NCBI GenBank assembly: GCA_945882415.1
Contig: CAMCWC010000020.1
Location: forward strand, 1 to 44,084
Length of the DNA stretch: 44,084 nt
Direction of reading: 5' to 3'
DNA from: Chthonomonas calidirosea
Lineage (GTDB): Bacteria > Armatimonadota > Fimbriimonadia > Fimbriimonadales > Fimbriimonadaceae
A program made the position numbers and the translations under genes. Shown piece after piece: positions 1-43,050 of this stretch. Every line of letters starts with the position of its first letter. The first letter of the stretch is position 1. The notes under the pieces were generated by a model. That model searched no databases. It was not told where the DNA came from and was given only the letters and a program-made list of their open reading frames with translations.

Positions 1-1
1 C

Positions 2-103
2 ACCTGGCTCCTGTCCTTCATGGACTACGACCTCGGCTACATCGACCTAGACGAAAAGTGCCTTCAACCGCTAGACAACCCCTTCGGGGCATTCAAGGTG
101 TAA
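2..103 (+). CDS. IS481-like transposase, C-terminal end (partial)
   Basis: Only the last 33 codons are inside the window; the frame is open from base 2 to TAA at 101-103. The visible residues include MDYDLGYIDLDEK and PLDNPFG, a tail I associate with IS481-type DDE integrase/transposases, where a YDLGYxD segment is followed by a PxxNPFG terminus. The catalytic DDE core lies outside the window, so whether the element is intact cannot be judged. It is followed directly by two copies of a TGTGTCCGG-containing sequence that may be the element end, and then by tRNA-fMet. The family assignment rests on memory of a short C-terminal motif and is moderate at best. Confidence 0.55.
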   Translation, partial: TWLLSFMDYDLGYIDLDEKCLQPLDNPFGAFKV

Positions 104-141
104 CCTATGTGTCCGGAACGATTTGTTACCCATGTGTCCGG
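103..141. repeat. Direct repeat ACCYATGTGTCCGG, probable IS end
   Basis: ACCTATGTGTCCGG (103-116) and ACCCATGTGTCCGG (128-141) differ at one base and are spaced 25 bp apart. They lie just after the transposase stop codon, where the terminal inverted repeat and transposase-binding sequence of an insertion sequence is expected. The other end of the element is outside the window, so the inverted repeat pairing cannot be confirmed. Confidence 0.5.
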
Positions 142-159
142 TATGGACAGAAGTGAATT

Positions 160-236
<77 letters not shown>

Positions 237-273
237 ATGGAACTAGTATTATTCCCATGTTTGGGGCGAAAAG

Positions 274-1239
274 TCAAGCCTCTTCGGTAGAACTTCCGCC
301 GTCGTTGGTCGATCGAAGCTCGGATGGCACGAGGCCGAGATACTCTTTGATGCTTTCCCGAAGCCCTTGGGTCGTGCCGAAACCAGCGATTTGCGCAACT
401 TTGTCCACCGGCTTGTCTGAACTCACCAAAATCCGAACCGCTGATTCTGTTCGGCAGCGGTCCACGTATTCGTGGAATCCGTATCCAACCAGGCCCTTGA
501 AGACGCGGCTGAAGTGGAAGGGCGAGTAGCCGGCACGGTCTGCCGCATCGCGTAGCGGCCAAGGCCCCACTGGATTCTCTCGAACGGCTTGGACGAGTTC
601 GCTCACCGTTTCTGGAAGGTCCGGCGGAGTTGCCGAAAGCTGTACCAAGTTCGGGCTCAGCATCAGGTGCGCAGAAATCTCATAAACCACGCTTAGCACG
701 TGCAGCTCGCTGCTATCCGACGGGCGCGCAATGGCGTCTTGAAGCCGATCAATAGACTTCAGGAAGAACGGAGAAAACGGTCGGCAGGAAACGCTCCGTG
801 CCAAATTGGGATCTGACTTTGCGGTTCGAGCGAGCCAGCTTTCAAGCACTGGGGTGGACTTCAGGTTCCACGAGATAACGGTCGCCTGGTGATCTCCGCG
901 GGCGGCTTGGAGCAGAAGTTCAGAAGATCGCGCAAAAAGCACGCTTCGGGGCGGAATCAGTACCAACGGCCCGTGGGCGGTGTGCCGGGCAATAAGCGTG
1001 CCGTAATAGTTGAGCGCAACGGCAGCCATTCCCTCTGGAATGGTCAGGTGTCCGTTCGCCGTGCGCAGATTCGTTCCGCTATAGCTATCACATCGAATGT
1101 GCCCATGGCCCTGAAATTCGGGTTTTCGGTTAAACGAGGCATGCGGGCCGCAATCAAAGCTGATTTCTAAATGATTCTCAATTTCCTCTGATCGCACCCC
1201 TTTTCCCCCGGTATGGAGTGTACAACGAATACACGCCAT
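274..1239 (-). CDS. AraC-family transcriptional regulator
   Basis: The C-terminal hundred residues form an AraC/XylS-type double helix-turn-helix: a first helix pair around LRDAADRAGYSPFHFSRVFK and a second around VDKVAQIAGFGTTQGLRESI. The N-terminal two thirds resemble a cupin-type effector-binding domain, but no ligand can be inferred. The gene is divergent from asd with about 30 bp between starts. The ATG at 1239 is used here; a GTG at 1197 is a serious alternative because the first 14 residues look uncharacteristic and a purine-rich stretch precedes it. A short inverted repeat GTGTA-N7-TACAC (1218-1234) lies upstream of that alternative start and could be an operator. The family call is secure, the target unknown. 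Confidence 0.88.
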   Translation of the reverse strand: MACIRCTLHTGGKGVRSEEIENHLEISFDCGPHASFNRKPEFQGHGHIRCDSYSGTNLRTANGHLTIPEGMAAVALNYYGTLIARHTAHGPLVLIPPRSVLFARSSELLLQAARGDHQATVISWNLKSTPVLESWLARTAKSDPNLARSVSCRPFSPFFLKSIDRLQDAIARPSDSSELHVLSVVYEISAHLMLSPNLVQLSATPPDLPETVSELVQAVRENPVGPWPLRDAADRAGYSPFHFSRVFKGLVGYGFHEYVDRCRTESAVRILVSSDKPVDKVAQIAGFGTTQGLRESIKEYLGLVPSELRSTNDGGSSTEEA

Positions 1240-1271
1240 GTTGGTGACGAACCTCAGGTATCACCTTTGTC

Positions 1272-2303
1272 GTGTCAACAGGATTAAAGGTTGCGGTTCT
1301 CGGCGCAACAGGTGCGGTCGGCGGTGAATTTCTTCGACTGTTCGAACAGAGAAACTTTCCCGTCAGTGAATTGAGACTTCTCGCAAGCGCGAGGTCGGCG
1401 GGCAAAACCGCAGATTTTCAGGGCGAGTCACTGCCTATTCACGCGGTTTCGGCCGATGCCTTTGACGGCGTGGATGTTGCCTTCTTCAGCGCGGGGGCGA
1501 CTCGGTCCAAAGAATGGGCATCTGTCGCGACCTCCGCTGGGGCGGTTGTGATTGACAACTCGAGCGCGTTTCGAATGGTGGATGATGTCCCTCTGGTTGT
1601 TCCCGAGATCAATGGCAATGCCATCACGGAATCGACGAAGTTGGTGGCAGTCCCAAATTGCACCGCAATCATCTTGTGCATGGCGCTCGCGCCCTTGCGA
1701 GCGCTGGGCTCAATTCAGCGCGTGATCGTGAGCACCTACCAGAGCGCAAGCGGGGGCGGGGCGGCAATGATGCAGTACCTGCTCGATGACACCAAGGCCT
1801 ACTTGGACGGTGAAGAAGGCACTGACAATCGACCCGAGGGATTGCCTCCCTACGCCTTTAATGTTTTCAGCCACAACACCCCGATCTTGGAGTCCGGAGC
1901 GAATGAGGAGGAAGCTAAGGTCATGGCGGAATCTCGGAAAATTTTGGGCGATGAATCCATCCGGTTCAACGTGACTTGTGTTCGAGTGCCGGTTCTTCGG
2001 GCTCACTGTGAATCGGTGACGGTGGAGTTCGTCGAAGAAGCGCCAACCGTGGAAGCGGTTAGAGACGTGCTGACCGATGCGGCAGGCGTCCGGTTGGTGG
2101 ATGTTCGTGAGGCGAACCGATTCCCGATGCCGCGCTTGGCTGGAGAACAGAACGATGTCTTGGTCGGGAGAATCCGTCCGGATGTTAGCAACCCTAACGG
2201 CCTTTGCATGTTCATCGCGGGGGACCAGCTTTTGAAAGGTGCCGCGTTGAACGCCGTTCAAATTGCAGAATTAATGCAAGATCGCGGTTATCTCCCAACC
2301 TAA
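1272..2303 (+). CDS. asd: Aspartate-semialdehyde dehydrogenase
   Basis: This enzyme reduces aspartyl phosphate to aspartate semialdehyde with NADPH, the branch point to lysine/diaminopimelate, methionine and threonine. The 343-residue product has the N-terminal nucleotide-binding motif GATGAVG (residues 11-17), the catalytic cysteine in VPNCTA (Cys130), and the C-terminal NDVLVGRIRPD segment typical of the family. The start is a GTG; an alternative ATG is not available upstream because of the divergent AraC gene. No strong Shine-Dalgarno is visible. The product is cytoplasmic. It is followed by a strong hairpin at 2383-2425 and is therefore probably monocistronic. Confidence 0.97.
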   Translation: MSTGLKVAVLGATGAVGGEFLRLFEQRNFPVSELRLLASARSAGKTADFQGESLPIHAVSADAFDGVDVAFFSAGATRSKEWASVATSAGAVVIDNSSAFRMVDDVPLVVPEINGNAITESTKLVAVPNCTAIILCMALAPLRALGSIQRVIVSTYQSASGGGAAMMQYLLDDTKAYLDGEEGTDNRPEGLPPYAFNVFSHNTPILESGANEEEAKVMAESRKILGDESIRFNVTCVRVPVLRAHCESVTVEFVEEAPTVEAVRDVLTDAAGVRLVDVREANRFPMPRLAGEQNDVLVGRIRPDVSNPNGLCMFIAGDQLLKGAALNAVQIAELMQDRGYLPT

Positions 2304-2382
2304 GCCCTAGTAAGAGTTGCTGGGATTTCGTTGGAAACGCGGGGGTGTCACACTTTTCTGCACCGAAACCCAAATTAGTGCC

Positions 2383-2425
2383 TAAAATGATCTGAGCCGC
2401 AGGCTATGCGGCTCAGATCATTTTA
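2383..2425. terminator. Perfect 18-bp hairpin, terminator or leader attenuator
   Basis: An 18-bp perfect inverted repeat (arm TAAAATGATCTGAGCCGC) surrounds a 7-nt loop AGGCTAT. The A-rich left and T-rich right arms allow termination in either orientation. It lies 80 bp after asd and only a few bases before the ribosome-binding site of the DUF1800 gene, so it may end the asd transcript and also sit in the leader of the next gene. Confidence 0.8.
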
Positions 2426-2445
2426 TTGGGAAGGGAGAGACGAAC

Positions 2446-3963
2446 ATGAGTCAAAACACTGCGGATGGCGCCTCGAGGCGCGCGTTTTTGCAAGCTGGGG
2501 CAGCGTCGATTGGTGCGCTCGCTTTGGCACAAACTTCGAAAGCCCAAGACTGGGCCGGCGGTCGAATTCAGCCTGGACCCATTGGCACCGAGCGGGGCAT
2601 GGGGACCTACGGCCTTGTGAACCGAATAACTTACGGACTCACAAGAGAAGAGGCCGATCGCTTCGACAACATTGGCTACGCGGCATATCTCGAAGAGCAA
2701 CTTAGCCCGCTCGAAATCGATGACTCGGAATGTGCATCGCGGCTCCGACAATTCCAGTCGCTCGACATGACTCCGTACAACTGTTTGCGCGGCTTGGATG
2801 AAAGTATCGATCCAAGTTGGGAGTGCGTTCAGTCGCAGATCGTTCGGGCAATCTACTCAAAACGTCAGCTTCAGGAGATCATGGTCGAGTTTTGGCTTGA
2901 CCACTTCAACGTCTACATCCACAACTCTGCGAGCGAGTTGATGCCGACGCACATCGCCACGATTCGCAAGTACTGCTTGGGTAGTTTCCACACGCTTCTC
3001 ACAAATGTCGTGAAGCAGGTTCAGGTGATGTGGTACTTGGACAACCTCAACAATGTGAACGGCTTTACGAACCAGAACTTTGGCCGAGAGCTTTTGGAAC
3101 TCCACACCCTTGGCGTGGACGGCGGATACACCCAGCGCGACGTTGAAACCGCTACCGCAGTCTTCACGGGATGGGGAATGGACGGCTACTACGAATGGCC
3201 GTGGGACCAAACGACCAACCGAAACTGGGGCAAGTTTAAGTTTTACGCGGACCGGCACGACACGAGTCAGCGCTACTTCATGGGTGATCTGCCAGAACAC
3301 CTGATCCCGGCCGGTGGCCAAGCTCAGGGCGACTTGCTATTGCAGCGATTGGCAACCCACCCATCAACGGCTTGGAACATCGCACGGAAACTGTGCCGAA
3401 AGTTCCTGTCTTACGAACCTAGCTACAACACGATCGAGGCGGCGGCCAATGCCTTCCTGTCTTCGAACGGCAACATTCGAACGGTTCTGAACTACATCCT
3501 TCGAGACATCCGTTTGTCGAAGTGGTACAAGCCGAAGTTCAAGCGTCCGTACCACTACACTATTTCATCCCTCCGAGCAATGAAAGCGGAAATGACCGAT
3601 TCGGAATCGATCATTTGGGAACTGCTCAACAACATGCGACAAGTGCCACTGCACTGGGCACCACCGAATGGATACCCAGATGCGATGAACGTGTGGGTCG
3701 AAAACCTTCGGCCGCGCTGGTACATGGCGTTCCAAATGCCGATGAACTGGCTGTGGAACGCCCGGGTGGATGTCTACGGATTGTTCAAAGATCGCACCCG
3801 AGACGGCGTCATTAGGGGAATCGAGCGAAACCTCTTTGGCGGCCCAATGAGCGCCGTTCGTCGAGAGCAGTTCCGTGGGGTTCTAAACAGCACCGCGACG
3901 AATACGCAGATTCGAGAAGCTTTTGGCTTGGCCCTTGCCTCGCCTGAGTTCCAGATGTATTGA
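2446..3963 (+). CDS. DUF1800 family protein, Tat-exported
   Basis: The 505-residue product begins with a twin-arginine signal (SRRAFLQAG, then a hydrophobic stretch and an SKAQ cleavage region), predicting export of a folded protein. The mature part matches DUF1800: a helical, tryptophan- and tyrosine-rich domain with NRITYGLTREEADRF near the N-terminus, FWLDHFNVY, and NFGRELLELHTLGVDGGYTQ in the middle. The start is supported by GGGAAGGGAGA just upstream. Ten bases separate it from a DUF1501 gene, the standard two-gene arrangement of this pair in Planctomycetes, Armatimonadota, Proteobacteria and others. The biochemical role of the pair is not established; none of the sequence suggests a specific substrate. 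Confidence 0.93.
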   Translation: MSQNTADGASRRAFLQAGAASIGALALAQTSKAQDWAGGRIQPGPIGTERGMGTYGLVNRITYGLTREEADRFDNIGYAAYLEEQLSPLEIDDSECASRLRQFQSLDMTPYNCLRGLDESIDPSWECVQSQIVRAIYSKRQLQEIMVEFWLDHFNVYIHNSASELMPTHIATIRKYCLGSFHTLLTNVVKQVQVMWYLDNLNNVNGFTNQNFGRELLELHTLGVDGGYTQRDVETATAVFTGWGMDGYYEWPWDQTTNRNWGKFKFYADRHDTSQRYFMGDLPEHLIPAGGQAQGDLLLQRLATHPSTAWNIARKLCRKFLSYEPSYNTIEAAANAFLSSNGNIRTVLNYILRDIRLSKWYKPKFKRPYHYTISSLRAMKAEMTDSESIIWELLNNMRQVPLHWAPPNGYPDAMNVWVENLRPRWYMAFQMPMNWLWNARVDVYGLFKDRTRDGVIRGIERNLFGGPMSAVRREQFRGVLNSTATNTQIREAFGLALASPEFQMY

Positions 3964-3973
3964 GGAGAGCAAA

Positions 3974-5323
3974 ATGCAACGAAAAGTTGGTTGTCAAGAG
4001 TACGAAAATCTTAGTCGTCGTGGCCTTATCGAAAAGATGGGTCGCCAAGCTCTCCAAGGACTTGCTCCCGCGTGGATGCCGTCCGTTACTTTTGGAAGCG
4101 ATTACCGCGGCAAGTTCGGCCCGGCAGATCGCGACGTTCTAATCTCGGTCTACCTTCGTGGTGGGTGCGATGGTCTGACGGTGTGCGTCCCTTACGGCGA
4201 TCCGGCCTACTATCAGCACCGATCCTCGCTGGCTGTACCGCCACCAGACCAGACCACGAACGCAAACCGCGCCGTTGACCTCAACGGATTCTTTGGTCTC
4301 CCTCCGGCCATGCAGCCACTCAAGGAACTGTATGACCTTGGGCACTTCTTGGTCGTTCACGCAACCGGACTTACGAACAATACGCGCTCGCACTTCGATG
4401 CGCAGCAGTTCATGGAAGCGGGTAAGGCAGACAAGAATCTCTGGACCGGTTGGCTCGGAAGACACTTAGCCAGCATCGGGGAAATGAAAGAGGGTGCGTT
4501 GCTGCGTGCCGTTGGATTAAGCGGTACGTTGGCGCTCACTCTGGAAGGCGGCCCGAGAACCACGACGCTCGCAAACATGGAAGACACTCGCTACGGCGGG
4601 CGGTCCGAATCTGAGGCGGCTCGTGTGAACTGGCTGCGCCAGGCATACGCCACCGCTCAGCCGGGTCTGGCCGAAGCGGCAGATAACACGTTCAAGACAA
4701 TTGACCTGTTGCGCAGTCTCAACTTCTCGAACTATCAACCCGCGGGCGGAGCGCAGTACAACCAGCCGATGCCAAACGGCGGCGGAACCTACGGCTCGGC
4801 GAGCGACTTTGGCAACTCTTTGAGGGCGGCAGCCTCTCTGATTCGCGCCGATGTCGGGGTTGAAGCGGTGCACGTGGACTTTGGTGGATGGGATACCCAC
4901 GAGTATCAAGCCCCATTCGAGTACTACGGTCCGATGTACATGGGGATGTACTCGCTCGCAACGAACTTGCGCGCGCTCTACACCGACTTGGAAGCTTCCG
5001 GATTTATGGGCAACGTGACGGTTGCCATCGTTTCGGAGTTTGGTCGAACTGTCCAACAGAACGGAAACTACGGCACCGACCACGGCCACGGAAACGTGAT
5101 GATGCTTCTCGGAAAGAACGTAAACGGCGGACAGGTGCTTGGCACTTGGCCGGGACTCGCGTCCGAGCTCTTGCACGAGCACAACGCTCTGGCCATAACG
5201 ACGGACTACCGCGACATCATTGCGGAAGTTGTTCAGAAGCGACTTAAGAACACGAACTTGAGTGCCGTCTTCCCAGATTCCGGCTACACGCCAACCTTCC
5301 GTAACGCTGTCCGCGCAGCATAA
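3974..5323 (+). CDS. DUF1501 family protein
   Basis: The 449-residue product belongs to DUF1501, a family with an alkaline-phosphatase/sulfatase-like fold. Visible family features are SVYLRGGCDGLTVCVPYGDPAYY near the N-terminus (in part), HATGLTNNTRSHFDAQ, DFGGWDTHE, VAIVSEFGRT and GTDHGHGNVM, whose Asp/His residues look like metal ligands. A weak twin-arginine-like SRRGLIEKMG lies close to the N-terminus without a classic hydrophobic core, so export may be by co-transport with its DUF1800 partner. The ATG at 3974 is preferred because GAGGAG overlaps the preceding stop at optimal spacing; longer forms lack such a site. It ends at a strong bidirectional terminator. Confidence 0.92.
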   Translation: MQRKVGCQEYENLSRRGLIEKMGRQALQGLAPAWMPSVTFGSDYRGKFGPADRDVLISVYLRGGCDGLTVCVPYGDPAYYQHRSSLAVPPPDQTTNANRAVDLNGFFGLPPAMQPLKELYDLGHFLVVHATGLTNNTRSHFDAQQFMEAGKADKNLWTGWLGRHLASIGEMKEGALLRAVGLSGTLALTLEGGPRTTTLANMEDTRYGGRSESEAARVNWLRQAYATAQPGLAEAADNTFKTIDLLRSLNFSNYQPAGGAQYNQPMPNGGGTYGSASDFGNSLRAAASLIRADVGVEAVHVDFGGWDTHEYQAPFEYYGPMYMGMYSLATNLRALYTDLEASGFMGNVTVAIVSEFGRTVQQNGNYGTDHGHGNVMMLLGKNVNGGQVLGTWPGLASELLHEHNALAITTDYRDIIAEVVQKRLKNTNLSAVFPDSGYTPTFRNAVRAA

Positions 5324-5329
5324 ACAAAA

Positions 5330-5363
5330 AGAGCCCAGCCCCGAATATTCGGGGCTGGGCTCT
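5330..5363. terminator. Bidirectional terminator between DUF1501 and ahcY
   Basis: A perfect 34-bp palindrome (arm AGAGCCCAGCCCCGAAT) is flanked by an A-run on the left and CTTG on the right. It serves the convergent DUF1501 (plus) and ahcY (minus) genes; for ahcY the transcript ends in a U-rich tail. Confidence 0.9.
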
Positions 5364-5376
5364 CTTGTACGTTCGA

Positions 5377-6669
<1,293 letters not shown>

Positions 6670-6694
6670 CTAAAACGCCCGGCACAGGTTCAAT

Positions 6695-6952
6695 TCAGTT
6701 TTCGGAGGGAGCGCCAGGTGCGGAGTTTGGCTGGTTCGTTGGCGTAACGTCGCCAACGGTGTAGCCATCTTTCTCCATATCGGCTTTTGTCTTGGGAGAC
6801 ATGGTGTCCCAAACGTAGCGAGGAATGACCTTGCTCGTTTTTGGAGCTGTAAATTCTTGCGTGCCATCTCCTCGGGTCAGGAAGTAACCGGCTACTGCCA
6901 ATACAGCGACAACGGAGACGACGATTGCGGGGACAGGAATGGGTTTTTTCAT
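6695..6952 (-). CDS. Small single-span membrane protein, unknown function
   Basis: An 85-residue product with a lysine start (MKKPIPVP), one hydrophobic segment at about residues 8-25 and a polar, proline- and asparagine-rich exported tail that ends SAPGAPSEN. No domain is recognised. The soluble part contains IPRYVWDTMSPKTKADMEKDGY, cited here only in part, which looks like a compact helical motif. It lies downstream of the LacI/prepilin pair in the same orientation, separated by a hairpin at 6963-6989, and could be cotranscribed by readthrough. Codon use and hydrophobic pattern support a real gene, but function cannot be given. Confidence 0.6.
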   Translation of the reverse strand: MKKPIPVPAIVVSVVAVLAVAGYFLTRGDGTQEFTAPKTSKVIPRYVWDTMSPKTKADMEKDGYTVGDVTPTNQPNSAPGAPSEN

Positions 6953-35200: not shown

Positions 35201-36172
35201 ATGAAAGGAATCGGGAATAAGTTTTTTGCTGCGGGCGTTTTGTGCCTGCTCAGCGCCTTGGCTAATGCTGGGACGCTGACGGTGCAGTCTCCGACCGCGA
35301 ACGCCTTTCTTGGGCAAACCAACACTTTGCGGTTTATCATTACCGGCGCAAAGCTGGAGGTGACGGTGAAGGCTGAAATTACCGGGCCGACCGGAACGAC
35401 CACCATCGAACGCAAGTTCACCCCGGATGGCGACGGCGAGATTTCGAACAGTCTCGCATTGAACTTTAGCGAGACGACCTCGGAAGGTGACTACTCGATC
35501 AAGGTTTCCGCGACCGAGCCGGCCAACACCTATGAGCCAACTACCATTCCGGTGAAGGTGGACGTCAAGGCACCGAAGGTTCTTGAGTTCTATCCGGCCA
35601 ATGGACAGCACAAACGCGGACTGGTCAAGATTCGCGCGCGATTGCTGGAGCCAAACCTCAAGAGTTGGGAAATTCTCGTTAATGACCAGCCCATTGCCAA
35701 CAACACCGGGAGCACCACCGACGTTTCGGTCGATTGGAACACGGCCGGTATCGCCAGAGACGGGAACCAGTCGATCAGTTTGAAAGTTACGGACGAGGCA
35801 GGCAACGAAACGAGCCGGTCGGTGAACATTACGCTTGACCGGGTTCAGCCGACCGTGACGATCGTGTATCCGCAGGCTGGAAACCGAATTACGCCGCAGA
35901 CGACGATCCCCGTTATTGTTGATATCGCAGATGCTTCAACGAGCTCGGTCGATGTGACCGGAGTTGAAGTTGTGTTGCGACGGATGGACGGATCCTACTT
36001 GGGGTCGGTAGCTCGAGTATCGGTCACGAATCAAGGCAGCACGACGCTTCGCTGGACGGGCCGAATTCGTAGTAGCGTTCCGCTTCCCAGCAGGTTTAAA
36101 GTTGTGGTGGACTGCATTGACAAGGCAGGAAACCGGGCGACGAGACAAGAAGTTTCCGTCACCATCGGTTAG
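35201..36172 (+). CDS. Secreted Ig-like fold protein
   Basis: The 323-residue product has a signal peptide (MKGIGNKFF, hydrophobic core, ALANA cleavage). The mature part is made of about three beta-sandwich domains: one at residues 25-120, a second beginning APKVLEFYPANG and ending with ISLKVTDEAGNETSRSVNI, and a third starting QPTVTIVYPQAGNRITP and closing DCIDKAGNRATRQEVSVTI. The D-x-AGN-x-(T/S) ending followed by alternating valines is characteristic of bacterial Ig-like (Big/PKD-like) domains. AGGAAGG supports the start. It is followed by a barrel protein and a caspase-like protein in one direction, suggesting a joint envelope function. Confidence 0.82.
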   Translation: MKGIGNKFFAAGVLCLLSALANAGTLTVQSPTANAFLGQTNTLRFIITGAKLEVTVKAEITGPTGTTTIERKFTPDGDGEISNSLALNFSETTSEGDYSIKVSATEPANTYEPTTIPVKVDVKAPKVLEFYPANGQHKRGLVKIRARLLEPNLKSWEILVNDQPIANNTGSTTDVSVDWNTAGIARDGNQSISLKVTDEAGNETSRSVNITLDRVQPTVTIVYPQAGNRITPQTTIPVIVDIADASTSSVDVTGVEVVLRRMDGSYLGSVARVSVTNQGSTTLRWTGRIRSSVPLPSRFKVVVDCIDKAGNRATRQEVSVTIG

Positions 36173-36219
36173 TCGCGCCGTTCGACGTTCGCGCGTCGTC
36201 CGGAATCAAGGAGAGATTG

Positions 36220-37386
36220 TTGACGAACAGGAAGTTCATCGCGTTCTTTGGAACGTTTATATTGTTTGGATCGGCTTCGGCACAAGTGCCGGACCTTTTG
36301 AACGCGTTTGACTCGGGTGCCCGATCGCAAGGTGCTGGCGGTGCGCTCAATGGTGCGGCGGCCGATACTTACTCCACCGTCTACAATCCGGCCGGGCTTG
36401 GCTACGTCAATCGTCCGACCTTGCAGCTTGGACAGCGCAATCTTCCCTCAACCCGAACCGCGGTGGGTGGGACTTTTAACGAACAAAACCGTACGGCAAC
36501 CCGGCGAAATGGGAGCACGAGTTTTGTGCACTTTGGCTATGCCATTCCGGGAAGCGCGATTCGGAAGGGTGAGAAGGGAAGCTTCGGCGTTAGCTACAGC
36601 ATCACCGGATTGGTTGACGACCTCGCCACCGCCGCGGGCGATTTGACTTTTGCACCGGGAATTCGAGTTCGAGACTTTACGGAGACCAAGCGAGTTCGAA
36701 CCGACTTCCTTTCGTTCGGCTATGGCCGGACCAATGCGGCGGGGAATCTTGCCGTCGGTTATGGAATCGTGTTTGCGAACCAGTCTTTGACCTTCCGGCA
36801 GACGGGGTCGCTGGTGGACGGTAACGGTGATCCGATTTCTGGCGGACCGGCGGTGATCAGTTTCCCGAATGTCAAATCGCGAAGATCCGGGGTTGGTTTA
36901 ACGGCGGGTGTTCAATACTCGCCACCGAATAATCCTACTGCCAGCTTCAACGCCAGCGTTCGTAGCCCGATTCGGGTAGGTGGCGGTGGATCGGGAGTCA
37001 ATTTCAGCACGATTCCGGGGCGCTTGATGCTCGGTGCTGCCCTACGGTACGAGGGATACCGGAAGGGCAAAGATGACTACCTCGTTGTTGGAGCCAACAC
37101 GCAGTTCTTCTTCGGCGGGCAAGGCAGTTCGGACTTTGAGCGCGGAAGCCAGGGCGGATTTGGCCTAGGGCTTGAGTACAACCTGGACTTCGGGCGAACT
37201 CGGGTCCCTCTTCGGCTGGGATACCAAACGATTGGCTCGAGCGGAACGGGTTACGATAGCTACCAGACCCTGACTTATGGCATCGGATATCAGCCGGGTG
37301 ACGGTCGGTACACGATAGACTTCAGCTACGCGCGGCCTCGCTCGGGTGGGCAGGACACTTACATTACGGCGACGTATCGATTTTAA
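36220..37386 (+). CDS. Outer-membrane beta-barrel protein, PorV/FadL-like
   Basis: The 388-residue product has a signal peptide ending SASA-Q. It continues SGARSQGAGGALNGAAADTYSTVYNPAGLGYV (in part), the N-terminal pattern G-x-G-G-A, then A-D-x-x-x-x-x-N-P-A-G-L, of PorV/PorQ, UPF0164 and FadL-type barrels. The remainder has repeating amphipathic strands and ends DTYITATYRF with a terminal aromatic, as expected for BAM-assembled proteins. TTG at 36220 is preferred over TTG at 36217 because AGGAG lies 6 nt upstream. It precedes the pseudo-caspase gene by two bases and follows the Ig-like gene by 47 bp. Confidence 0.85.
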   Translation: MTNRKFIAFFGTFILFGSASAQVPDLLNAFDSGARSQGAGGALNGAAADTYSTVYNPAGLGYVNRPTLQLGQRNLPSTRTAVGGTFNEQNRTATRRNGSTSFVHFGYAIPGSAIRKGEKGSFGVSYSITGLVDDLATAAGDLTFAPGIRVRDFTETKRVRTDFLSFGYGRTNAAGNLAVGYGIVFANQSLTFRQTGSLVDGNGDPISGGPAVISFPNVKSRRSGVGLTAGVQYSPPNNPTASFNASVRSPIRVGGGGSGVNFSTIPGRLMLGAALRYEGYRKGKDDYLVVGANTQFFFGGQGSSDFERGSQGGFGLGLEYNLDFGRTRVPLRLGYQTIGSSGTGYDSYQTLTYGIGYQPGDGRYTIDFSYARPRSGGQDTYITATYRF

Positions 37387-37388
37387 CC

Positions 37389-38753
37389 ATGCGAATTCTT
37401 CCTGTTCTTGGCTTTTTGATTCTGGCAACGGTTGGACACGCCCAAGCATGGAAGGACAATTACGAGCGTGGTTTGACCTTGGCGAAGGCCAACGATTGGT
37501 CCGCGGCGCGGATGGCCTTTAAGGACGCGCTGAAGACTCGGCCGAACGATGAGTCGGTGCCGACGCCGTTTCCGGGACCGATTACTGAGCGGCGGGTTTG
37601 GCGCGGCGGGGCGCCATATTCGGCAAATCTGTTGGCCGCTTACAGTGCAATTCGGCAAGCAGCTCGGCTCGAAGAGAAAGCAGCCCAAGATGCGCTGCTG
37701 AAGGAAGCGCAGACCGAACTTGAGAACTCGCTGACCAAGCGACAAGCGGGAAGCAATGCCGTGTTCTTGCTGGGTGAGGTCTACACGATGCTTGGCTTGG
37801 CGGATAAGCGGGTTGAGCTTCAGCAGAAGGGGATCAACCGGAACTGGCGCGAAGATACCGAGATCATCGCGCCGGAGCAGATTGCGATTGTGAACCCGAC
37901 GGGGAACTCTGCGACGACTCCGACGAATCCGCCCACCAATCCACCGACGAACCCTCCTACGAACCCGCCGACGAATCCTCCAACCAATCCGCCGGTGAAT
38001 CCGAACGCGGGGACGGTTTCGCAGGCACCGGTGGTCGGTGGCGTGCAGACGCTTTCGAACAAATACGCCTTCATCATCGGCAACTCCGAATCGGGCTTGG
38101 GTGAATTGAACTTGCCGTTTGCGGTGAACGATGCGCAGTTGGTCGCGCAGGAGATCAACATGTACGGCGGCTACCCGAAGGAGAACATCGTGGTCGTTGA
38201 GAACGCCACGGCCGACGTAATGCGGCAGAAGATGACGGAGCTGGCGGCACGGATACCGGCGAAGGCGACCGTGATGATTTACTTTAGCGGCGTCGGATCG
38301 AACGTGAACGACCGGGATTATATGGCCGGGACCGATGCGACGGGCCTGTTGGATACGGCGCATATGCTCTCGAAGGCCGAGCTGTACCAAGCCTTTGCGG
38401 CGCGGGAAGCGATTGTTTTTGGCTTCTTCCAAGCGAATCGACCGGAGCGGACGCCTACTCGGGTGTTCGGCTACGAACTGCCGACGGCCGGGGCATATTC
38501 GCAGTGCCAGGCGACTTTTGCCGGTGGATCGGTTTATAGCCTGGTTCGCAATGGCAAGCCGGTTGGGGTTTATACCGACGCGTTTGTCGCGGTACTGCGT
38601 GAGTTCCGGACCAACCAGATTCCGATTATCGAGTTCGGCTGGAAGGTGTTCTACCGAGCTCGCCGAGGCGAGAACGGCACGACGGGCGGCAGCGCGGTGC
38701 AGGCTCCTACTTTGCCTGAGTTGAACCTGTTGGGTTCAGACGCGCGTTTTTAA
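37389..38753 (+). CDS. Exported caspase-like protein lacking the catalytic dyad
   Basis: The 454-residue product has a signal peptide (about 1-18, ending GHAQA), a TPR-like helical region (about 20-150; YERGLTLAKANDWSAARMAFKDAL in part), a linker of six N-P-P-T units (about 179-203) and a caspase-fold domain from 225: KYAFIIGNSES, LPFAVNDAQLVAQEI, NIVVVENATADVM, VMIYFSGVGS. In active C14 peptidases the last is YFSGHGS; Val302 replaces the catalytic histidine. Where a D-x-C-x-S-G is expected the sequence reads FGFFQAN (344-350), so the cysteine is missing too. It starts two bases after the barrel gene and is presumably cotranscribed. The 3' end overlaps coaX by 18 bp, convergent. Confidence 0.82.
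   Translation: MRILPVLGFLILATVGHAQAWKDNYERGLTLAKANDWSAARMAFKDALKTRPNDESVPTPFPGPITERRVWRGGAPYSANLLAAYSAIRQAARLEEKAAQDALLKEAQTELENSLTKRQAGSNAVFLLGEVYTMLGLADKRVELQQKGINRNWREDTEIIAPEQIAIVNPTGNSATTPTNPPTNPPTNPPTNPPTNPPTNPPVNPNAGTVSQAPVVGGVQTLSNKYAFIIGNSESGLGELNLPFAVNDAQLVAQEINMYGGYPKENIVVVENATADVMRQKMTELAARIPAKATVMIYFSGVGSNVNDRDYMAGTDATGLLDTAHMLSKAELYQAFAAREAIVFGFFQANRPERTPTRVFGYELPTAGAYSQCQATFAGGSVYSLVRNGKPVGVYTDAFVAVLREFRTNQIPIIEFGWKVFYRARRGENGTTGGSAVQAPTLPELNLLGSDARF
37923..37997 (+). repeat. 12-bp coding repeat encoding N-P-P-T
   Basis: Six consecutive units encode the Asn-Pro-Pro-Thr linker between the TPR-like and caspase-like regions. Codons vary (AAT/AAC, CCG/CCA/CCT/CCC, ACG/ACC/ACT), so the repeat is kept at protein level rather than by recent slippage. 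Confidence 0.85.
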
Positions 38754-40911: not shown

Positions 40912-43050
40912 GTGGTCAACCGCCTCTTCGCGACAATACTTGCAGCCCTATGCGCTCTTAGCACTGCAGCGGCTCAAGAGGCAGAGCGCATCTTTGCCAG
41001 TTCCGAGCGGGCTGTGTTTACCATCGATACGCCCAAAAAGGTAGGAACTGGTTTCGTACTTTCCAATGGACTTCTTGTCACGTGCTATCACGTCGTGAAG
41101 GGTGTTGGGGGGCGTGTGAAACTCCGAGAGGCGCCTTCAGTTCGTCTCGCCTACCTGGCCCACGACGAGAAGGCGGACATTGCGGTCTTCACCTTAAACT
41201 CTGCGATGCCCGCGTATTTGCGGCTTCGGGAGGGTGTCCCTATTGTCGGTGCAACCACCTACGTGATCGGTTCGCCGCTGGGAGAGTTGCAGCGGTCTAT
41301 CTCTAACGGGATCATAAGCCAGGTCCGCAGGATCAGAGGGTTGGAATTTCTGCAAATCACCGCTGCCATCAGCCCTGGAAGTTCGGGCAGCCCGGTGCTT
41401 GACGAGAAAGGGTTGGTTACGGGGATGGTGACCAGCACATTGAAGGAGGGGCAGGCCAACAACTTTGCGATTTCATCTGGCGAGATTTCTAGGTTTCTCA
41501 CATCTCTCAAAGCCAAAGAGCCGAGGACGCCCGCAATCGCGAAGGCCCCTGCGAAACAACTTAAGTCCGTTGGGCCGTCGCTGATTTGCCAGTTTGTCCG
41601 GCCGACCTCATGCTACCGAGAGCCCAATCTTGCAACTCAACCTCGTTTGTTTGTACGGGCTAAGCGCCTTACGATGGGCCAGCGCACTGCGAGCCCAGAA
41701 TGGATTGCGATCAAAGCGGAAACCGGGACCGCCCTTGAATTGCTTTACGTACCGGCAAAGGACGTAAGGCTTTACAGCATGAAAGACCGGAACAACCCAA
41801 ATCTCAGAGACCCTTTTGATGCTGCGCCGCCCAACGGCTTTGAAAAGCTGGTATCCGACCTCCACCACGGTGATGACAATAGGAGATCTGCTGCACGGAG
41901 AAAGTTGCTCTCCTACGGCCCGGCAATTGTCAAGCACGTTCTTTCACTATTCGAGCATGCTTGGGACCCGGAGTCATATCGCGCCTTGTTATCACTTCGT
42001 GCGTTGGGAAGAGCTGCAAAACCTTACGTTTTGGTCTTTCTCAAGGATGGTAGTGAGACGCAAAAGGAAGCCATTGCCCGACTATGGGAGGGCATGGCGA
42101 AGAGCCTTTGGGAAGCGGAACGGATCGCTAGCGAGCAAACGGCCCACGATGCATCCTCTCGAGTTTTTCGTCAAGACGCTCTTGAAATGATCAAGAACCT
42201 TTCGTGGCTCCGAGACGCTGACATGGTGAATCTTTATTCAGCGTTGCTTAGCTCCAACCGAGCAAAACGGCACGGGGGAATGCTCGTTGCTTATCTGCAA
42301 TTGAAGGAATACAAGAGCGAGATCGCCAAAATAACGCAGTCTAAAGACGACGATGAGGCAGCATCCGGCTTTGAGGCATTCTGCCTACTTGCGGATAATT
42401 TCGACACCTTGCTGATCAAAGAACAATTTTATAGAATTGCAGCAGTTGATATTTACACGACCAAGCCTGTACAGAATAAATACACGTTCGATTTAATCGG
42501 GCATCTGTCTTCTAGCAGAAATGAGGCGTGCTACAAAGTGCTCTTAGACTTCTTGGACAACGAGAACGAGTGGGTGAGAAAAAATGCCGCCTCCCGGCTC
42601 AGGTTGTGGCCCCGAGAAGAAACGATTAGTCGGATGAGTCCTCTTGTCAACGACAAAAGTCAGGACGTTCGAGCGGAGGCTATCTTAACGTTAGCTGAGA
42701 TTGCGCCAGATCGCTTTATCGAGGAGGCGATTTCTCTTTCTAAAAGCAAGGACACTTACGACCGGGCTATGGCTGCCCACGCTCTAGGCGCTACGAAGCT
42801 TGACCTTGCAGCATCCCATCTTGAAAAGCTTTGTCAAGACGAAGATGAAACCGTTCGTGTGTCGGCTAGGACGGGTCTGGCCGCGAACGGAACGCCTATG
42901 GCCGTGGAAGTACTGGTCCGGTTGCTGGAATCGGCGGACCCGAGGGCACGAAAGGAAGCTCGGGAGGCACTCAAGAAGTTGGGTAAGGAACCTCCAACAA
43001 CTTTCAGTCATCCCAAGATCTTGTCTCTTTCGGCGAAGCCTGAGGCTTAA
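40912..43050 (+). CDS. Secreted trypsin-like protease fused to HEAT-like repeats
   Basis: The 712-residue product has a signal peptide (LFATILAALCALSTAAAQEA). Residues 28-205 are an S1C-type (DegP-like) serine protease with an intact triad: His60 in TCYHVVKG, Asp89 in KADIAVF and Ser158 in SPGSSGSPVLD. It lacks a PDZ domain. A linker of about 120 residues leads to a helical repeat region (about 325-700) with HEAT-like units such as NEWVRKNAASRLRLW, SQDVRAEAILTLAEI and DETVRVSARTGLAANG. The start is GTG, with TATAAG 9 nt upstream and no Shine-Dalgarno. Codon use is more AT-rich than upstream genes. The HEAT region presumably recognises substrates or partners. Confidence 0.88.
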   Translation: MVNRLFATILAALCALSTAAAQEAERIFASSERAVFTIDTPKKVGTGFVLSNGLLVTCYHVVKGVGGRVKLREAPSVRLAYLAHDEKADIAVFTLNSAMPAYLRLREGVPIVGATTYVIGSPLGELQRSISNGIISQVRRIRGLEFLQITAAISPGSSGSPVLDEKGLVTGMVTSTLKEGQANNFAISSGEISRFLTSLKAKEPRTPAIAKAPAKQLKSVGPSLICQFVRPTSCYREPNLATQPRLFVRAKRLTMGQRTASPEWIAIKAETGTALELLYVPAKDVRLYSMKDRNNPNLRDPFDAAPPNGFEKLVSDLHHGDDNRRSAARRKLLSYGPAIVKHVLSLFEHAWDPESYRALLSLRALGRAAKPYVLVFLKDGSETQKEAIARLWEGMAKSLWEAERIASEQTAHDASSRVFRQDALEMIKNLSWLRDADMVNLYSALLSSNRAKRHGGMLVAYLQLKEYKSEIAKITQSKDDDEAASGFEAFCLLADNFDTLLIKEQFYRIAAVDIYTTKPVQNKYTFDLIGHLSSSRNEACYKVLLDFLDNENEWVRKNAASRLRLWPREETISRMSPLVNDKSQDVRAEAILTLAEIAPDRFIEEAISLSKSKDTYDRAMAAHALGATKLDLAASHLEKLCQDEDETVRVSARTGLAANGTPMAVEVLVRLLESADPRARKEAREALKKLGKEPPTTFSHPKILSLSAKPEA

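Follow-up and report, generated by a model that had tools for sequence, protein, structure and literature searches.

A predicted catalytically dead caspase homologue encoded beside a FadL/PorV-like outer-membrane barrel in Fimbriimonadales

Out of 9,994 bacterial orthocaspases, 858 are without one or both residues of the catalytic dyad, and 90% of these belong to alphaproteobacteria and cyanobacteria (PMC6426788). Such pseudo-orthocaspases (Klemencic et al. 2019, PMC6426788) have a p20 caspase fold with substitutions at both dyad positions and no separate p10 domain, form vertically kept clades mostly of the YS or YN type, some of them with N-terminal export signals, and in cyanobacteria keep both Asp residues of the S1 pocket. 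Bacterial pseudo-caspases have hardly any assigned functions, and discussion of them has so far mostly concerned photosynthesis. In bacterial caspase homologues, TPR is among the commonest partner domains, and members with an N-terminal signal peptide have been described (PMC3501461). A second precedent is the PorU-PorV pair, in which the PorV barrel tethers PorU, a gingipain-like protease, within a system that also contains Ig-like domains (PMC5562754).

Here we analyze a gene located at positions 37389 to 38753 of a 44,084-nucleotide stretch of DNA from Chthonomonas calidirosea (hereafter the window). Its product, the pseudo-caspase, has a p20 caspase domain with both dyad residues replaced, as in the pseudo-orthocaspases. 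In contrast to the clades described so far, it is neither a YS nor a YN form with an intact pair of S1 Asp residues: both dyad columns vary freely and the second S1 Asp is replaced by Gln or Glu; it is moreover found in Fimbriimonadales rather than in cyanobacteria or alphaproteobacteria, and its gene is linked to one encoding an outer-membrane barrel. Compared with active family C14 peptidases, orthocaspases and MALT1 (PF00656), it has the fold and a profile score over the cut-off but lacks the His-Cys dyad. Judged from its sequence, the protein is a catalytically dead caspase homologue, that is, a predicted pseudo-orthocaspase. The first-pass annotation of this DNA had called the fusion of such a domain to an exported TPR-like region an unusual architecture, a judgement that does not survive the TPR partners, signal peptides and pseudo-orthocaspases already described in bacteria. 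What does appear new, as far as we searched the literature, is a clade spread across the order Fimbriimonadales whose dyad columns vary freely, the pairing of its gene with a FadL/PorV-like barrel in one operon, and the occurrence elsewhere of this gene order with a dyad-bearing caspase; a search for PorV together with caspase or Armatimonadetes returned nothing relevant. The features of the window are as follows.

35201..36172, plus strand: exported Ig-like-domain protein, first gene of the trio (Big_13, 8.1e-8; colinear in orthologous loci)
36217..37386, plus strand: FadL-fold outer-membrane barrel related to PorV/PorQ (FadL/PorV structural matches; NF033709)
37389..38753, plus strand: pseudo-caspase gene, 454 amino acids, stop codon included in the coordinates (open reading frame, PF00656 match, orthologues)
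37389..37442, plus strand: residues 1-18, a putative Sec signal peptide that would be cleaved ahead of Q19 (read from the sequence)
37443..37883, plus strand: N-terminal helical, TPR-like domain, residues 19-165 (AlphaFold2 helices, weak TPR_9 match, invariant residues)
37884..38045, plus strand: disordered linker with N-P-P-T repeats, residues 166-219 (pLDDT below 50 at 171-216; variable in orthologues)
38046..38750, plus strand: caspase-fold domain, residues 220-454 (MALT1 structural match; conserved terminal Phe)
38130..38132, plus strand: D248 codon, equivalent of the first S1-pocket Asp (Asp in 70 of 78 orthologues)
38292..38294, plus strand: V302 codon, catalytic His position (His in 0 of 78)
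38436..38438, plus strand: N350 codon, catalytic Cys position (Cys in 0 of 78)

Export signal, domain layout and caspase fold

The pseudo-caspase starts with a signal-peptide-like sequence of textbook form, read by eye as MRILPVLGFLILATVGHA, which ends in GHA and is followed by QAW. The A-x-A-Q-x-W pattern of the putative cleavage region is kept in orthologues and W21 is invariant; signal peptide and conservation together point to export, as the first-pass annotation had proposed, probably via Sec. An AlphaFold2 model of the protein was built from 32 sequences and has a mean pLDDT of 85, with a caspase core at about 95-98 and a disordered stretch at residues 171-216. The N-terminal part is modelled as paired helices (pLDDT mostly 84-98), is rich in residues that are invariant in the orthologue alignment (W37, D54, W71, R72, Y77, Y85) and gives a weak match to the Pfam family TPR_9 (1.4e-3, under the cut-off). 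Matches to this domain beyond the order (G245, G267 and others) turned out to be generic multi-TPR proteins. The N-P-P-T linker reported earlier between the TPR-like and caspase-like regions is real, but this type of repeat occurs only in the nearest relatives, the other orthologues having a variable Pro/Thr/Gly-rich linker.

Residues 225-407 match Peptidase_C14 (PF00656) with an E-value of 2.3e-9 and 37.7 bits (cut-off 21.4), and 27 of the 32 aligned family members match this profile individually, the best at 8.4e-13. No relative was found in the PDB by sequence alone. The modelled domain superimposes on the MALT1 paracaspase (3uo8) with a Z score of 23.5 over 208 residues at 2.8 A, and a Foldseek comparison of the model with MALT1 gave an E-value of 8e-9; the alignment runs across MALT1 residues 340-560 and scores any p10 region together with the rest. 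The predicted structure thus clearly has the caspase fold that the first-pass annotation had assigned to it. A PADLOC anti-phage caspase profile matches the pseudo-caspase partially (86 residues, E 6.3e-5), and neither the barrel nor the Ig gene has a PADLOC match. The protein ends in Phe (window 38748-38750), as do 82 of 83 rows, and the one row that does not comes from a truncated contig; though the pseudo-caspase is no barrel protein, this terminal Phe could be a docking tail.

Loss of the catalytic dyad

To follow the dyad positions we used 78 distinct orthologous sequences of the order Fimbriimonadales (Armatimonadota) collected from relatives of the source genome, from the phylum and from named genomes, the latter being Armatimonadota filed under Fimbriimonadaceae, Fimbriimonadales or related names plus one record titled Methanoregulaceae archaeon. 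That record (L083) carries a clear Fimbriimonadales orthologue and the whole module, and is probably a mislabelled bin. Aligned with active caspases, the protein reads YFSG-V302-G for YFSG-H-G and Q-A-N350-R for D-A-C-R. This register is supported by seven more distant caspases from the same searches, all of which have SGHG or AGHG and, in the three that reach the Cys region, DACR. The His column of the 78 orthologues contains V (26), A (22), Q (6), P (5), S (5), T (4), N (3), I (3) and four singletons, and the Cys column N (36), S (13), D (9), H (8), P (5), A (3), R (3) and G (1); the commonest pairs are V/N, A/N and V/S. Out of 209 columns, these two rank 164th and 139th in conservation, respectively. 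Flanking residues are in contrast kept, G301, D310 and R351 being invariant and F346 being present in 77 of the 78 sequences. A shifted dyad was considered and rejected: Cys349 occurs in 4 and His305 in 10 of the 78 orthologues, no displaced pair is conserved, and His and Cys are found together near the site, both displaced, only in L107. The claim that V302 and N350 mark the loss of both catalytic residues is consequently upheld, and extends uniformly to all 78 orthologues. Following the assignment of S1-pocket residues in PMC6426788, the first Asp corresponds to D248, and the second (residue 348) is Gln in 60 and Glu in 18 of the 78 sequences.

Comparison with an orthologue of 96% identity gives a dN/dS of 0.018 in the caspase domain and, over the gene as a whole, of 0.037, similar to the 0.035-0.051 of neighbouring genes. 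Because this purifying selection is strong (dN/dS about 0.02), the caspase domain is not decaying, and a pseudogene is ruled out by these values together with intact frames throughout. Placed in a tree beside 38 dyad-bearing caspase rows from the phylum, the dead sequences form one clade with a support of 100/100, which fits a single loss of the dyad.

The gene trio and its dyad-bearing counterpart

The pseudo-caspase gene is the last of three, after the genes for the Ig-like protein and the outer-membrane barrel, and its ATG lies 2 bases after the barrel stop codon. The trio is colinear in all 20 genomes first checked, where the barrel-caspase join of G025 is only an assembly gap, and in 30 of 31 named contigs with upstream sequence, the exception being L103. 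An apparent barrel-caspase fusion in G025 (an open frame of 858 amino acids) was discarded, as the frame crosses a stretch of N between the genes. Among 85 Fimbriimonadaceae genomes, 67 have both barrel and pseudo-caspase, 4 the pseudo-caspase only, 1 the barrel only (an incomplete genome) and 13 neither; for the Ig-like protein the corresponding numbers are 65, 6, 1 and 13. The co-occurrence of barrel and pseudo-caspase has a Fisher p of 4e-11 when genomes are counted as independent and kinship is ignored. The pseudo-caspase is able to persist without the barrel, as three genomes show: G148, where the order is HAD, caspase, CoaX and both Ig and barrel genes are missing, G131, with the caspase alone, and G149, with no detected partners. 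A promoter scan at the locus was uninformative and terminator-like sites were no more frequent than expected by chance.

A similar arrangement occurs in f12, a distantly related family within the phylum, where two genomes (G091, G095) encode a multi-Ig protein, a barrel and then a protein of 1376-1518 amino acids with a C-terminal PF00656 domain whose dyad is intact (AGHG; DACR). In a further genome (G094) the locus is split: one contig holds the barrel gene with the beginning of the third protein, and the caspase end with its dyad sits on a second contig. In the tree these active module caspases are not sister to the dead clade, both standing on long branches; an AU test does not reject their grouping with it (p 0.48), and a profile comparison of the f12 caspase with the pseudo-caspase covers only the caspase region. 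Common descent of the two modules is argued mainly from the shared gene order, which in these three genomes suggests that a catalytic envelope module has lost its catalysis. In another genome (G211), the genes behind Ig-barrel pairs encode a sulfatase or proteins with no Pfam match, and there is no caspase.

Possible roles of the pseudo-caspase

The explanation we favour, at slightly better than even odds, is that the dead, exported caspase has become a structural or binding component of a conserved envelope module together with the Ig-like protein and the FadL/PorV-like barrel. After Sec export, its TPR-like and caspase domains would contact proteins, most likely the barrel, the Ig protein or both, at the outer membrane, and the dead domain would hold or position a partner or client polypeptide in place of cutting it. 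The pseudo-caspase may descend from a cutting version, given the intact dyad in the three distant-family genomes. For the binding or scaffold role put forward by the first-pass annotation, dyad loss combined with purifying selection is what is expected of a binding pseudo-enzyme, but the binding of a partner is itself something we infer, as a probable non-catalytic contact at the outer membrane modelled on PorV and its tethered PorU. An order-wide clade of single origin, tied to a barrel and lying outside cyanobacteria, points to an envelope role with two concrete candidate partners, and because another family has an intact-dyad caspase at the matching place in the gene order, the change from a protease into a pseudo-protease can be put to the test.

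The barrel model places this protein in the FadL/OMPP1 superfamily fold, with matches to FadL (Z 33.2, 329 residues, 3.2 A), the BamG-type FadL-fold subunit of Bacteroidota BAM (28-29) and PorV (25). This makes the scaffold reading less secure, because the best structural match is FadL, a channel for hydrophobic molecules, and not PorV. By sequence, 25 of 26 barrel members match NF033709 (PorV/PorQ) at E-values up to 0.01 (best 3.9e-13, below the cut-off), the barrel of the window scores 25 bits against a curated cut-off of 90 bits, and a sequence search of the PDB found PorV at an E-value of 0.021. Like PorU-PorV, the locus places an exported protein of protease fold beside a FadL-fold barrel, with Ig-like domains; it differs in that the protein matches C14 instead of C25 and is predicted to be non-catalytic, and that the barrel is under the PorV cut-off. 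A C25 profile search of the genome gave zero matches, as it did in the controls, and the pseudo-caspase itself matches C14, not C25. Membership in a type IX secretion system was tried and rejected: SprA scored 33.2 bits against a cut-off of 200 in the source genome, with no control genome matching either, and Por_Secre_tail had no match there, while the control genomes did match. These results give no indication of a type IX system. A broader proposal, which we regard as tentative and rather doubtful, is that this outer-membrane module is unrelated to the type IX system and that the whole order swapped proteolysis for a structural use of the caspase fold, the distant family keeping the cutting version. 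If true, this would provide a natural before-and-after pair for a bacterial protease turning into a scaffold.

It is less probable, though worth weighing, that the pseudo-caspase is a peptide receptor or chaperone whose old groove, with its one S1 Asp, still takes up basic peptides or unfolded proteins of the envelope and hands them over, needing no stable complex with the barrel. D248 is kept in most orthologues, as in cyanobacterial pseudo-orthocaspases, and the gene persists without Ig and barrel genes in G131, G148 and G149; the second S1 acid is however replaced, unlike in the pseudo-orthocaspases with both Asp, and the trio is otherwise strongly linked. An improbable alternative makes the pseudo-caspase and Ig protein accessories that gate or feed a FadL-type channel importing or exporting a hydrophobic molecule. 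The barrel shares its fold and the conserved NPA motif (N57 and P58 invariant, A59 near-invariant) with FadL and TodX channels (PF03349), but differs from them in its linked Ig-like and pseudo-caspase genes and in that its transport role is putative; the PorV/PorQ sequence matches also speak against this explanation, as does the occurrence of FadL-fold barrels as non-transport subunits (PorV and the BAM subunit).

Still more improbable is a regulatory action on a true caspase of the same cell, in the way cFLIP acts on caspase-8. The source genome does encode one other C14 protein, L032 (G000:C1:138952-139404), with an intact dyad (FCGHG, VDACRN), and most relatives carry several; such regulation is made less likely by several near-complete genomes (among them G021, G029, G033, G163 and G042) that have the pseudo-caspase and no PF00656 match in an imperfectly sensitive search, and would require the exported protein to meet the caspase in the envelope. 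An enzyme with a different catalytic set is very improbable, as the surroundings of the active-site position hold no conserved His, Cys or Ser and the nucleophile column holds N, S, D, H, P, A, R or G, even if K225 and Y262 are, like D310 and R351, invariant polar residues.

Five genomes of the source's genus (G004, G005, G008, G013, G019), among the larger ones at 4.9-6.5 Mb, are without all three module genes. One contig (L174 of G039, positions 1-6774) carries a further cluster of Ig and barrel genes. Its third gene, of 1077 amino acids before the contig breaks off, has an N-terminal domain in common with the pseudo-caspase and no caspase domain in its sequenced part. Near the module, window positions 40912-43050 encode a probably exported protein of 712 amino acids with a trypsin-like protease domain followed by HEAT repeats.
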